Assembly: GCA_018652595.1 (NCBI GenBank) | Contig: JABIBU010000001.1 | Location: forward strand, 1 to 54,364 | DNA from: Candidatus Magasanikiibacteriota bacterium | Lineage (GTDB): Bacteria; Patescibacteriota; Patescibacteriia; Magasanikbacterales; UBA922 | Length of the DNA: 54,364 nucleotides | Reading direction: 5' to 3' | Shown: in pieces, positions 31,015-46,673 of the stretch | Numbering within the stretch: the first letter of the stretch is position 1 | Layout: each line of letters starts with the position of its first letter | Program-made: the position numbers and the translations under genes | Notes under the pieces: generated by a model | Database searches by the model: none | Told to the model about the DNA's origin: nothing | The model's input: the letters and a program-made list of their open reading frames with translations, nothing else

Positions 31015-31029
31015 GCTGTCGTTATATAT

Positions 31030-31090
31030 GCCAACTTAGTCCGCCCGGCAATCGCCTACGGCTCAAGCCGTTGGCGGACGGGCTCAGCTG
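31030..31090 (+). repeat. tRNA-Thr 5' fragment split by a 43-bp palindromic insertion (copy 1)
   Basis: GCCAACTTAG (31030-31039) is the first ten bases of the intact tRNA-Thr at 31445. A 43-bp insert follows (31040-31082) with outer CCGCC/GGCGG and inner ACGGCT-ca-AGCCGT arms. CTCAGCTG (31083-31090), tRNA positions 11-18, then resumes. Confidence 0.85.
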
Positions 31091-31110
31091 TTTGTCACTC
31101 GTCATTTTAT

Positions 31111-31347
31111 ATGTTTTATACTTACGTTTTAAAAAGTAATAAAGATGATAAGTTGTATATCGGTTTTACTGATGATTTGAAGCGTAGATTCACTGAACAT
31201 AATGATGGTTTAGTAAAATCCACAAGAGATAGAAGGCCTTTTGAATTAATCTATTATGAGGCATGTTGTAAAAAAGATAAAGCTTTAAAACGGGAAAAAT
31301 ATTTTAAAACTGGTTTTGGAAGACGTTTTTTAAAAGATAGAATATAA
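31111..31347 (+). CDS. GIY-YIG single-domain endonuclease
   Basis: A 78-residue protein of the small GIY-YIG (UPF0213/YhbQ-like) family: YTYVLKSNKDDKLYIGFTDD carries the two GIY-YIG strands, DLKRRFTEHN the conserved Arg, and the C-terminal LKREKYFKTGFGRRFLKD the basic helix. These nucleases cut DNA with one catalytic domain. The start at 31111 (MFYTYVLKS) is the family start. The gene lies between two interrupted copies of the tRNA-Thr 5' end, followed by an intact tRNA, which suggests that its product acts on tRNA-gene DNA and that the whole is a mobile element. The stop codon is one base before the second fragment. Confidence 0.88.
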   Translation: MFYTYVLKSNKDDKLYIGFTDDLKRRFTEHNDGLVKSTRDRRPFELIYYEACCKKDKALKREKYFKTGFGRRFLKDRI

Positions 31348-31348
31348 T

Positions 31349-31415
31349 GCCAACTTAGCCCGCCCGGCAGTCGCCTGAGGCTCCAGCCAATGGCGGACGG
31401 GCTCAGCTGGTAGAG
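31349..31415 (+). repeat. tRNA-Thr 5' fragment split by a 43-bp palindromic insertion (copy 2)
   Basis: GCCAACTTAG (31349-31358), a 43-bp insert (31359-31401) with the same outer arms but divergent centre, and CTCAGCTGGTAGAG (31402-31415). The break point, after tRNA base 10, is the same as in copy 1. Confidence 0.85.
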
Positions 31416-31763: not shown

Positions 31764-32021
31764 ATGAGTCGAAAATTTCCCGCTCACTTTCCGAAGGTTG
31801 GTGATGTCGTTACTATGAGGGAGGTGGAGAATGAAGATGTTCTTGTGGAGGTCCAAGTAGCAGGACGTCGTTGGTTTCAAGCTGATCCTATGCTTGTATT
31901 TAGTGACGGCACTGTTGGTATCCTCATCTCTACTGATGATGGTGAGTGGAAGTGGAATTGGATGCGATTTCCTGGTTCTTCTTGTGATGGCGACAAAATC
32001 TTGTGGTTGCTTTCCTATTAG
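31764..32021 (+). CDS. G+C-rich orphan small gene, unknown function
   Basis: An 85-residue soluble protein I do not recognise, with several Trp residues (RRWFQADP, DGEWKWNWMRFPG) and an SH3-like beta pattern. It is led by a strong SD (CTGGAGGAG, 31751-31759) that backbone genes here lack, with its own promoter and a 10-bp 3' hairpin plus terminator. Codon use favours C/G at the third base more than mutM downstream. Size, GC and arrangement link it to the units at 25271, 39858, 45455 and 46014, though the proteins are not alike. Confidence 0.6.
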   Translation: MSRKFPAHFPKVGDVVTMREVENEDVLVEVQVAGRRWFQADPMLVFSDGTVGILISTDDGEWKWNWMRFPGSSCDGDKILWLLSY

Positions 32022-39857: not shown

Positions 39858-40127
39858 TCATGCGACAGTTGGTTTTTGGTCATTTTTCGAGGTTGTTGCC
39901 TCGAGGCGTCCGAGAATATCGACCTCTGGCATTTTTCCTGCGATGAGCAGGTCGATTGCCTCAGGGTCAAGCCCTTTGTAGCGAAGTAGATGATTCCGAA
40001 TTTCTTCATCATCCCAATCAGAACTTCGTTGTTGTGGAATCCACATTTCCAGCAGAAAGGTATATGCTTCGCACATGTTCTTTTCTGCTTCCAAGATTAC
40101 TCCCGGTAAGCTTTTATCTTTCGCCAT
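39858..40127 (-). CDS. G+C-rich orphan small gene, unknown function
   Basis: I start this gene at 40127 (MAKDKSLPGVILE), because AAAAGGAGG (40139-40131) lies just before that ATG. The 89-residue, mainly helical protein (ILEAEKNMCEAYTFLLEMW, DDEEIRNHLLRYKGLDPEAIDLLI) matches nothing I know. Promoter TTGCCC-17-TAGGAT precedes it. A purine tract AAGGGGGAC follows the stop, then the shared terminator. Like the other orphan units it is richer in G+C than its neighbours and has a clear SD. Confidence 0.6.
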   Translation of the reverse strand: MAKDKSLPGVILEAEKNMCEAYTFLLEMWIPQQRSSDWDDEEIRNHLLRYKGLDPEAIDLLIAGKMPEVDILGRLEATTSKNDQKPTVA

Positions 40128-45330: not shown

Positions 45331-45356
45331 GACCTTCCTAAAGGAGGGTTTTTTTG
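45331..45356 (+). terminator. Terminator of the mosaic protein gene
   Basis: ACCTTCCT-aa-AGGAGGGT then a run of seven T. Confidence 0.7.
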
Positions 45357-45359
45357 TAC

Positions 45360-45388
45360 TTGACATTTTGGGGAAAATGGTATAGTAT
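45360..45388 (+). promoter_or_regulatory. Promoter of twin unit A
   Basis: TTGACA (45360-45365), 17-bp spacer, TAGTAT (45383-45388). Unit B has TTGACT-17-TAGTAT at the same distance from its leader. Confidence 0.75.
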
Positions 45389-45406
45389 GTTTATTATGTT
45401 CTATTT

Positions 45407-45431
45407 ACCTGAGTCCATGATGGGCGAAGGT
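45407..45431 (+). ncRNA. Structured 5' leader of unit A
   Basis: ACCT-ga-GTCCA-tga-TGGGC-ga-AGGT: a four-pair outer and five-pair inner stem around a small internal loop. The counterpart at 45967-45991 differs at three stem positions, all keeping pairing. SD-bearing sequence follows. Confidence 0.6.
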
Positions 45432-45454
45432 TTTTCACTGAAGGGGGAAGTTCG

Positions 45455-45769
45455 ATGACAAAGAGTGCACATGTGTTTAGGCTCCGGGAAGGAGTCGAAG
45501 TGGAAATTCCCAGGTGGATGTTCTTTACGGAGGCGAAGGAGCCTGATGCCGAGGGTGGTATCACCCCGATGATCACGCGTATCAAGGGTGTCGGCGGGGG
45601 CAAATTCACCTTCCGATCCATGTCGGAACTCGATCCGAGTGACGATGACCTGACTGGGATCGTGGGGTTCATCCCGCGTTTCGCCCCAGGTGACATTCTC
45701 GTGCTCAACCGTGTGGAGGTTGGTGGAGAGAAGGGGATCCGCAACTTGCGCTTCCTGCCCAAGACCTAG
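45455..45769 (+). CDS. Twin unit A: G+C-rich orphan protein
   Basis: A 104-residue soluble protein I do not recognise (VFRLREGVEVEIPRWMFF, MITRIKGVGGGKFTFRSM, GFIPRFAPGDILVLNRVEVGGE), compatible with a small beta-barrel. Codon use is dominated by ATC, CTC, GTC and CGC forms, strongly unlike the AT-rich genes around it. GGGGGAAG ends five bases before the ATG. Promoter, leader hairpin, stop-codon hairpin, 98-bp 3' block and terminator are all shared with unit B, but the protein is not. Confidence 0.65.
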   Translation: MTKSAHVFRLREGVEVEIPRWMFFTEAKEPDAEGGITPMITRIKGVGGGKFTFRSMSELDPSDDDLTGIVGFIPRFAPGDILVLNRVEVGGEKGIRNLRFLPKT

Positions 45770-45783
45770 AGACGCTCGTCTCT
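45768..45783 (+). other. Stop-codon hairpin of unit A
   Basis: AGAGAC-gctc-GTCTCT begins inside the TAG stop (45767-45769). The same stem with a different loop covers the stop of unit B. Confidence 0.65.
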
Positions 45784-45800
45784 CAAGCTCGTCCGGGCTA

Positions 45801-45898
45801 GGTTTCATCCGTTCATTAAGTAGTAGGAGGATAGGAGGTGGTCTTTGAGCCCAAGGCTCACTGTGTCCACCTCCTGAAATTGATTTTTTTATTCCACC
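45801..45898 (+). repeat. 98-bp direct repeat, copy 1 (3' region of unit A)
   Basis: Identical base for base to 46561-46658. It contains a purine tract GTAGTAGGAGGATAGG, the hairpin GGAGGTGG...CCACCTCC (45834-45874) with an inner GAGCC-caa-GGCTC stem, and the start of the terminator. Confidence 0.95.
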
Positions 45899-45915
45899 TG
45901 AGAGGTGGTTTTTTT
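45894..45915 (+). terminator. Terminator of unit A
   Basis: CCACCT-gag-AGGTGG plus seven T. Confidence 0.85.
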
Positions 45916-45919
45916 GTAC

Positions 45920-45948
45920 TTGACTTTTTGAAAAAAATAGTGTAGTAT
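45920..45948 (+). promoter_or_regulatory. Promoter of twin unit B
   Basis: TTGACT (45920-45925), 17-bp spacer, TAGTAT (45943-45948). Confidence 0.75.
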
Positions 45949-45966
45949 ATTTGCTATGCTATGTTT

Positions 45967-45991
45967 ACCTAAGCCTATGGTGGGTGAAGGT
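45967..45991 (+). ncRNA. Structured 5' leader of unit B
   Basis: ACCT-aa-GCCTA-tgg-TGGGT-ga-AGGT, same fold as in unit A. Confidence 0.6.
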
Positions 45992-46013
45992 TTTTTTCAA
46001 GGGGGTTTCTTTT

Positions 46014-46526
46014 ATGCCGATGAGAAATTTGGAGAATTGTTTGATTGCGTTTGAGTTCGGAACTGTAGAAGTCGGGTTCTGGAAGGGGGGTCGGGTTCGT
46101 GCTCTCAAGTCTGCATTCGTCGCTTGGGAGATGAGAAAAACGGAGATTCCGGAGGTTCCCATTTCTCCGGCACTCGGTGGTAAGGGATATTACACCCCGA
46201 TCGAGAATGTCCTCTGGGACAATCACGATGTCCTCAATGGGCAGTTCGGTTATCCCAAGGGGTTCGTTGCCATTCAGGCTTTTCAGCAGGAGGGTGGTTG
46301 CTCTTGCGGCTTCCCCGGTGCTGGATGCGGTGGTGGTGGTTGCGACGACTGCAACTGCGATCCATCTGTGGAGTTCGTCTCCACCGAGTCGAGTCATCGC
46401 GATGATGGTCCATGCGATGGGTGTGTGGCATGTCATGGTGGCGATGATTGTCCATGCGATGGGTGCGTCGATGACTTCTGTTCTGAGTGTGCTCACAATG
46501 TCCCGCAGCAGTCTGCTACGACCTAG
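46014..46526 (+). CDS. Twin unit B: G+C-rich cysteine-rich orphan protein
   Basis: I start it at 46014, where GGGGG (46001-46005) is a suitable SD. The 170-residue product has an N-terminal domain of about 95 residues (IAFEFGTVEVGFWKGG, YYTPIENVLWDN, GYPKGFVAIQAFQQE) and a C-terminal 75-residue region with 14 cysteines: CSCGFPGAGCGGGGCDDCNC, then two imperfect copies of DGPCDGCVACH and DCPCDGCVDDFCSEC. The DNA under these copies repeats (CCATGCGATGGGTG twice). Many CxxC pairs suggest metal binding; no signal peptide is seen. The longer ORF on the other strand is a shadow. Confidence 0.65.
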   Translation: MPMRNLENCLIAFEFGTVEVGFWKGGRVRALKSAFVAWEMRKTEIPEVPISPALGGKGYYTPIENVLWDNHDVLNGQFGYPKGFVAIQAFQQEGGCSCGFPGAGCGGGGCDDCNCDPSVEFVSTESSHRDDGPCDGCVACHGGDDCPCDGCVDDFCSECAHNVPQQSATT

Positions 46527-46541
46527 AGACATTTCGTCTCT
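46525..46541 (+). other. Stop-codon hairpin of unit B
   Basis: AGAGAC-atttc-GTCTCT begins inside the TAG stop (46524-46526). Confidence 0.65.
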
Positions 46542-46560
46542 CCTGTCCATCTCTGGGCTG

Positions 46561-46658
46561 GGTTTCATCCGTTCATTAAGTAGTAGGAGGATAGGAGGTG
46601 GTCTTTGAGCCCAAGGCTCACTGTGTCCACCTCCTGAAATTGATTTTTTTATTCCACC
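46561..46658 (+). repeat. 98-bp direct repeat, copy 2 (3' region of unit B)
   Basis: Exact copy of 45801-45898; divergence starts at the terminator loop. Confidence 0.95.
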
Positions 46659-46673
46659 AATAGGTGGTTTTTT
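46654..46673 (+). terminator. Terminator of unit B
   Basis: CCACC-aata-GGTGG plus six T. Confidence 0.85.

Follow-up and report, generated by a model that had tools for sequence, protein, structure and literature searches.

Twin one-gene units with common flanks and unrelated genes in a Magasanikbacterales genome, and a candidate terminator hairpin behind similar units

Introduction

How two adjacent genes that encode unrelated proteins came to lie between nearly identical flanks is the question raised by a locus in the genome of a Candidatus Magasanikiibacteriota bacterium. The bacteria under Patescibacteria have very small genomes, and the gain and expression of new genes in these bacteria are poorly known. 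The original prediction, made for the whole stretch of 54,364 nucleotides that was analysed here (the window), suggested that constant flanks surround a variable gene at this locus, either as a cassette or effector locus or as an RNA-controlled expression frame into which different genes are placed. In this work, the flanks, the proteins, and comparable units in related genomes were analysed.

Results

Layout of the twin units

The locus consists of two adjacent one-gene units (the twin), both of which lie where the original prediction had placed them. Both units exhibit the same order, which is promoter, leader hairpin with U run, Shine-Dalgarno (SD) sequence, gene, stop-codon helix, strong second hairpin, and simple terminator. 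The common promoter layout, the structured leader, the SD, the hairpin over the stop codon, and the terminator that had been described were thus all recovered in both units. The promoters given throughout this work are predictions from sequence. The coordinates of the features are shown in Table 1. The folding z-scores of the two 3' regions are -2.6 and -3.8 when compared with dinucleotide shuffles. The coding GC is 0.57 for P1 and 0.54-0.55 for P2 against a background of 0.365-0.37, which agrees with the description of GC-rich genes in AT-rich surroundings. Elsewhere in the window, two GC-rich direct repeats of 68 nt (88%) are located at 31024-31409, with tRNA genes and the unit at 31764 lying downstream of them.

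Table 1. Coordinates of the twin units and of further units in the window.
Feature	Positions	Strand	Basis or remark
Unit 1 predicted promoter (-35 TTGACA 45360-45365, 17-nt spacer, -10 TAGTAT 45383-45388)	45360-45388	+	Sequence reading
Unit 1 leader hairpin (ACCT-GA-GTCC-ATGAT-GGGC-GA-AGGT, 45407-45431), then U run	45407-45435	+	Sequence reading; inner pairs survive the changes in unit 2
Unit 1 Shine-Dalgarno AAGGGGG	45441-45447	+	Sequence reading
P1, 104 aa, GC 0.57, class-restricted, predicted all-beta family	45455-45769	+	Relatives, alignment, structure model
Unit 1 stop-codon helix (ACCTAG/CTAGGT around AGAGAC-loop-GTCTCT)	45764-45803	+	Sequence reading, folding, alignment
Unit 1 3' block, with hairpin AGGAGGTGG..CCACCTCCT	45792-45898	+	Comparison, folding, covariance model
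GGAGGATA then AGGAGGTGGTC in unit 1 3' block	45826-45843	+	Sequence reading; putative function
Unit 1 intrinsic terminator	45894-45915	+	Sequence reading, folding
Unit 2 predicted promoter (-35 TTGACT 45920-45925, 17-nt spacer, -10 TAGTAT 45943-45948)	45920-45948	+	Sequence reading
Unit 2 leader hairpin (ACCT..AGGT, 45967-45991) and U run	45967-45995	+	Sequence reading; comparison with unit 1
Unit 2 Shine-Dalgarno AAGGGGG	45999-46005	+	Sequence reading
P2, 170 aa, Cys-rich C-terminal half	46014-46526	+	No relative among 381 class genomes; unrelated to P1
Unit 2 stop-codon helix (ACCTAG/CTGGGT around AGAGAC-loop-GTCTCT)	46521-46563	+	Sequence reading, folding, alignment
Unit 2 3' block	46552-46658	+	Comparison, folding, covariance model
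Unit 2 intrinsic terminator	46654-46673	+	Sequence reading, folding
Other self-contained GC-rich unit, 85 aa, own promoter and terminator	31764-32021	+	
Probable further unit, 89 aa, GC 0.46, terminator present, promoter not clear	39858-40127	-	

Likeness between the flanks of the twin

The promoter and leader of unit 1 (45347-45447) and of unit 2 (45907-46005) are 79.2% identical over 101 nt (blastn E 5e-19), and their ungapped comparison gave 81% over 89 nt. In the 3' block, 105 of the 107 nt agree between the units (98%), and the exact identity of 98 nt within it that had been predicted (45801-45898 and 46561-46658) was reproduced. Divergence is about 20% in the leaders and zero in these 98 nt, which is a point absent from the original prediction. 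The two flanks therefore differ in history or in constraint, and the comparison suggests that the 3' end was exchanged later or is strongly constrained. The leader hairpin is kept in both units, where three of the four inner pairs differ and all of them are still standard pairs; these changes are weak evidence because they are mostly transitions.

Both 3' blocks contain GGAGGATA, at 45826 and at 46586. It is adjoined by AGGAGGTGGTC, which is complementary over 11 nt (with one G-U pair) to the 3' end of the 16S rRNA of the same genome, read as GGATGGATCACCTCCTTT. Judged by this complementarity, AGGAGGTGGTC could pair with the 16S rRNA 3' end. GGAGG, the SD-like motif of the 3' hairpin, may have a ribosome-related or protein-binding role.

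The proteins P1 and P2

The two proteins are not recognisable as homologs. Their local alignment score is 25 against a mean of 26.6 for shuffled sequences, the profile-profile comparison by hhalign gave a probability of 0.1, and the P1-family HMM at maximum sensitivity did not report P2. The original prediction of unrelated proteins of 104 and 170 residues is supported by these pairwise, HMM, and profile-profile comparisons, none of which detected the homology that would make the locus a simple tandem duplication. A kinship that was suggested by eye (GGK..YP) was ruled out by the HMM and the profile comparison.

The P1 family is patchily distributed and occurs in 17 of the 381 class genomes. 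Its members are recognisable across families of the class, and the relatives identified in a sample of 380 genomes of the phylum all belong to this class. In many members the C-terminus carries a motif like LFLPxGLKxGDxLxIxWxDxxCACA, of which P1 keeps only a part. The AlphaFold2 model of P1 is confident and all-beta (pLDDT 83), and it has no significant match in PDB or among viral structures. A likeness to small beta barrels was vague (Z below 5) and was not used. Designed SAKe beta-propellers that were listed in the PDB sequence search were taken as composition noise because no stretch passed on its own.

P2 has no relative in the 381 genomes of the class. Its matches in G167, G173, and G329 (E 0.001-0.003) are weak or short, and those in G167 and G173, whose sites were read, were attributed to chance. 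A search for related loci in genome_contigs, where the pattern step was probably too strict, found none. P1 and P2 have no match in Pfam, PHROGs, or PADLOC, and the twin unit has no match to phage DNA or protein.

Search for the flanks at other loci

The original prediction expected the same flanks at many loci with different ORFs, and this expectation failed for the exact flanks, which were recovered at the twin only. The whole-genome DNA search found no copy of the 3' block or leader outside the twin in its own genome, which is a draft of 27 contigs and the sole representative of its genus in this search. The leader pattern was not found in 45 other genomes of the family or in genome_contigs, and the flanks have no match in viral contigs or phages. 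The covariance model of the 3' block recovered the twin alone in 571 kb of sequence, and its match at L067 (E 0.16, covariance-model E-values being rough) was judged to be chance. The twin has no match among the 4227 models of Rfam. The reading of sequence covered about a third of the genome of the twin and the loci around matches in other genomes, all of which are drafts.

The gene pair to the right of the twin is conserved in eight relatives, of which seven were examined with upstream sequence. All seven have no unit upstream of this pair. The gene to the left of the twin is not conserved.

Population of one-gene units

Units of this kind recur in the genome of the twin. In 343 kb of this genome, self-contained units with promoter and terminator make up 8 of the 26 genes whose GC is 0.45 or higher and 9 of the 286 other genes (odds ratio 13.7, p 1e-5), a count that rests on crude gene calls. 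Among the predicted products of the units are a purine nucleoside phosphorylase and a VKOR-like protein, and many other products fall into no known family. Ten unit proteins, P1 and P2 included, have no match in PADLOC, and ten unit proteins have none in PHROGs.

In other genomes, each relative of P1 stands alone with unrelated genes on either side, and these relatives are mostly GC-rich. For most of them, a promoter, an SD, and a terminator that belong to the gene itself can be recognised. The flanks of these relatives differ from those of the twin, and gene and flank are therefore separable.

Other features were observed during the reading of these loci. Short ORFs that begin with MN(R/T)IR(G/A)P follow a AAGGAGAACC Shine-Dalgarno sequence at L054 6450-6560 and L049 3855-3890; they occur in two genomes behind unit genes and are possibly a conserved mini-ORF. 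A group I intron (Rfam, 78 bits) is located at L068 15439-15755 on contig C1 of the genome of the twin. On C25 (20001-40000) of the same genome, a short promoter-to-terminator stretch with strong hairpins and no obvious ORF (L063 7880-8115) has no match in Rfam, and the 32 nt upstream of it resemble the promoter of the twin at 91%.

A terminator element behind the units

The sequence GGAGGATA also sits in the internal loop of five unit terminators, from which a covariance model (R2) was built. The fold of R2 consists of two stacked helices and an asymmetric internal loop with GGAGGAU on its 3' side. R2 matches were identified in 46 of the 86 genomes of the order. These matches belong to two families, and none were identified in the 15 genomes of families f2, f3, f5, f6, f7, and f8. 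In the genome of the twin, 13 R2 sites were read. In the cases read, R2 is mostly located 13-100 nt behind the stop codon of a small and usually GC-rich ORF. The ORFs ahead of R2 are largely unrelated to each other, and a few matches lack a clear ORF. One member of the P1 family, in G075, has an R2 element 3' of the gene.

The structure of R2 was examined in an alignment of 29 matches, none of which had been used in building the model. Paired cells make up 96.4% of this alignment, both sides changed in 25 of the 27 pairs, and the covariation is 0.775 against 0.228 for shuffled sequences. The G-U pairs amount to 8%, and the U-tract side is fixed. The loop contains GGAG in 28 and GGAGG in 21 of the 29 matches, which were fitted to a model that itself favours GGAG. 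The R2 hairpins have no match among the 4227 Rfam models. R2 is a covarying terminator hairpin that is predicted from sequence and previously undescribed. A kink-turn reading of the internal loop, made by hand, was dropped because several members lack tandem G-A pairs. The 3' block of the twin is not matched by R2 despite containing GGAGGATA, and its fold differs.

Flank sharing and movement of units

Three cases of frame sharing emerged when GC-rich inserts were scanned for short direct repeats on either side, which are the twin, a pair on contig C24 of the same genome, and a pair in G008. The C24 pair repeats a promoter stretch (83% over 48 nt) and a terminator stretch (83% over 47 nt) around unrelated content, which is an ORF-less stretch in one frame and an ORF of 122 aa in the other. 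The G008 pair, in the same family as the twin, shares 64 nt of 98% identity, which precede an asparaginase in one unit and an unrelated protein of 121 aa in the other. The part of the original prediction in which one frame surrounds different genes is therefore upheld by these pairs, by R2 behind unrelated ORFs, and by the flanks of the P1 relatives, but not by the exact flanks of the twin, which were not found elsewhere.

The ORF-less frame on C24 (L080 1894-2375) lies beside a GC-rich unit and encloses about 430 nt with no sense ORF of 60 aa and no Rfam match; it is possibly a new small RNA. The asparaginase gene of G008 is full-length (L049 on C11, 2724-3821) and has a GC near 0.6, compared with 0.43 for the locus. 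It is a one-gene unit, and its promoter stretch recurs before the next unit.

Three tandem units in G073 have a common 3' element (70-84% over 57 nt). Their proteins look by eye like diverged paralogues, and some arrays therefore appear to arise by duplication and divergence. Next to a tRNA gene, the same chromosomal site is occupied by three R2-type units in G073 (L133 3124-4442) and by one in its congener G074 (L140 2398-2470). R2 hairpins are also clustered at L134 of G003 and L136 of G010, as they are at L133 of G073.

In G397, genes X and Y are separated by a unit of promoter, ORF, and terminator. In its congener G412, the gap between X and Y is 40 nt and a homologous unit lies after Y. 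The comparison indicates that one unit was relocated between these genomes as a whole piece of promoter, ORF, and terminator. The inserted cassette of the original prediction thus has a counterpart in this single unit, which lies in genomes of another family.

Discussion

The twin probably represents chromosomal moron-like expression units that were twinned by duplication of the frame, or by recombination, around different genes. Each unit would be an autonomous and monocistronic analogue of a phage moron in the chromosome. Most likely, the pair would stem from a tandem duplication of the frame or from homologous recombination that joined a second unit via the common 3' block, and the twin copies would afterwards have carried different genes. 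At the 3' end of the twin, exchange would have been latest or constraint strongest. The 3' blocks would end the transcript, and they may also stabilise or regulate it. Several points speak against this explanation. The flanks of the twin were found nowhere else, and with a single genome of the genus in the comparison and an unconserved gene on the left, the twin has no clean empty site to be compared with. A simple duplication followed by loss and replacement of one gene by other means would look alike, and the tandem units of G073 appear to encode paralogues.

The array of G073 shows what a plain tandem duplication may look like, with three units that have a common 3' element and paralogue-like proteins where G074 has a single unit. 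For the twin, such a duplication would require that one coding part diverged past recognition and that the flanks were kept by selection. This is unlikely, since relatives of P1 can be recognised in different families of the class and P2 is not recognised by pairwise, HMM, or profile-profile comparison. Moreover, the apparently unpaired spacer of the 3' block is 100% identical, yet the whole coding part would have to be randomised. The flanks could also be kept alike by one regulator, which may be a protein, a small RNA, or attenuation by the leader hairpin and U run, with the origin of the frame being secondary. The conservation of the leader hairpin with U run, of the stop-codon helix, and of the 98-nt block is in favour of such co-regulation, and R2 demonstrates that structural conservation is possible for the 3' elements of such units. 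However, the covariance model in the sequence sampled and the whole-genome DNA search found no further copy of leader or block in the genome of the twin, so any regulon would hold only two genes, and we consider this reading improbable.

The hairpin behind each variable gene, the R2 hairpins that lie close together at L133, L134, and L136, and the relocation of a whole unit between G397 and G412 are features that integron-like cassettes would also exhibit if the 3' hairpin were a site of site-specific recombination. The attC boxes have the consensus RYYYAAC / GTTRRRY. No such boxes were found in the blocks or leaders of the twin, and none of the 29 R2 elements has both boxes in the right order. 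The units also have their own promoters, the G-U pairs and fixed U-tract side of R2 fit selection on RNA, and no recombinase was noticed beside the twin; recombination cassettes are thus very improbable. An artefact of assembly or binning, in the form of a collapsed or chimeric repeat, might be suspected in a draft genome of 27 contigs. It is hardly credible given that the flanking gene pair is syntenic in genomes of the family, P1 relatives exist in the class, and such units are present in dozens of genomes.

Beyond the preferred reading of the twin as moron-like units, it is conceivable, if doubtful, that two families of the order keep exchangeable one-gene cassettes. The constant part of these cassettes would be a structured RNA at the end of the transcript (R2 and related forms, the 3' block of the twin among them), whose GGAGG would contact the 16S rRNA 3' end or a protein. 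Genes would be moved in and out of frames, and the basis of the system would be an expression frame instead of a site for a recombinase.

The units marked by R2 offer a direct way to list accessory genes in at least 46 genomes and to ask what functions these genes have. They also let the movement of units between related genomes be followed. R2 itself is a clear candidate RNA motif with an internal loop that is open to biochemical testing.

Phage morons are independent single-gene units in prophages. The units described here resemble them in the sequence signals for a promoter and a terminator that enclose a single gene, in the deviating GC of the twin (0.54-0.57 against 0.37 in the surroundings), and in being single foreign-looking genes between unrelated genes. 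These are the characteristics by which morons have been defined, together with hotspots that hold different genes (PMC2920897). Morons are also missing from between the same neighbours in relatives, which was seen here for the unit of G397 and G412. Unlike morons, the twin lies in a chromosome rather than a prophage, with chromosomal neighbours and a syntenic right-hand gene pair, and the unit proteins that were scanned have no PHROGs matches. Adjacent units with common flanks and a dedicated 3' RNA element in many units are further differences from morons. Integron gene cassettes are similar in having a variable gene with a structured 3' element, in forming arrays, and in changing position, but each twin unit has its own TTGACA/T-17-TAGTAT promoter and no integrase was noticed beside the twin. 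R2 resembles intrinsic (rho-independent) terminators in being a hairpin with a U tract, and it differs from them in its two stacked helices and its conserved asymmetric loop GGAGGAU.
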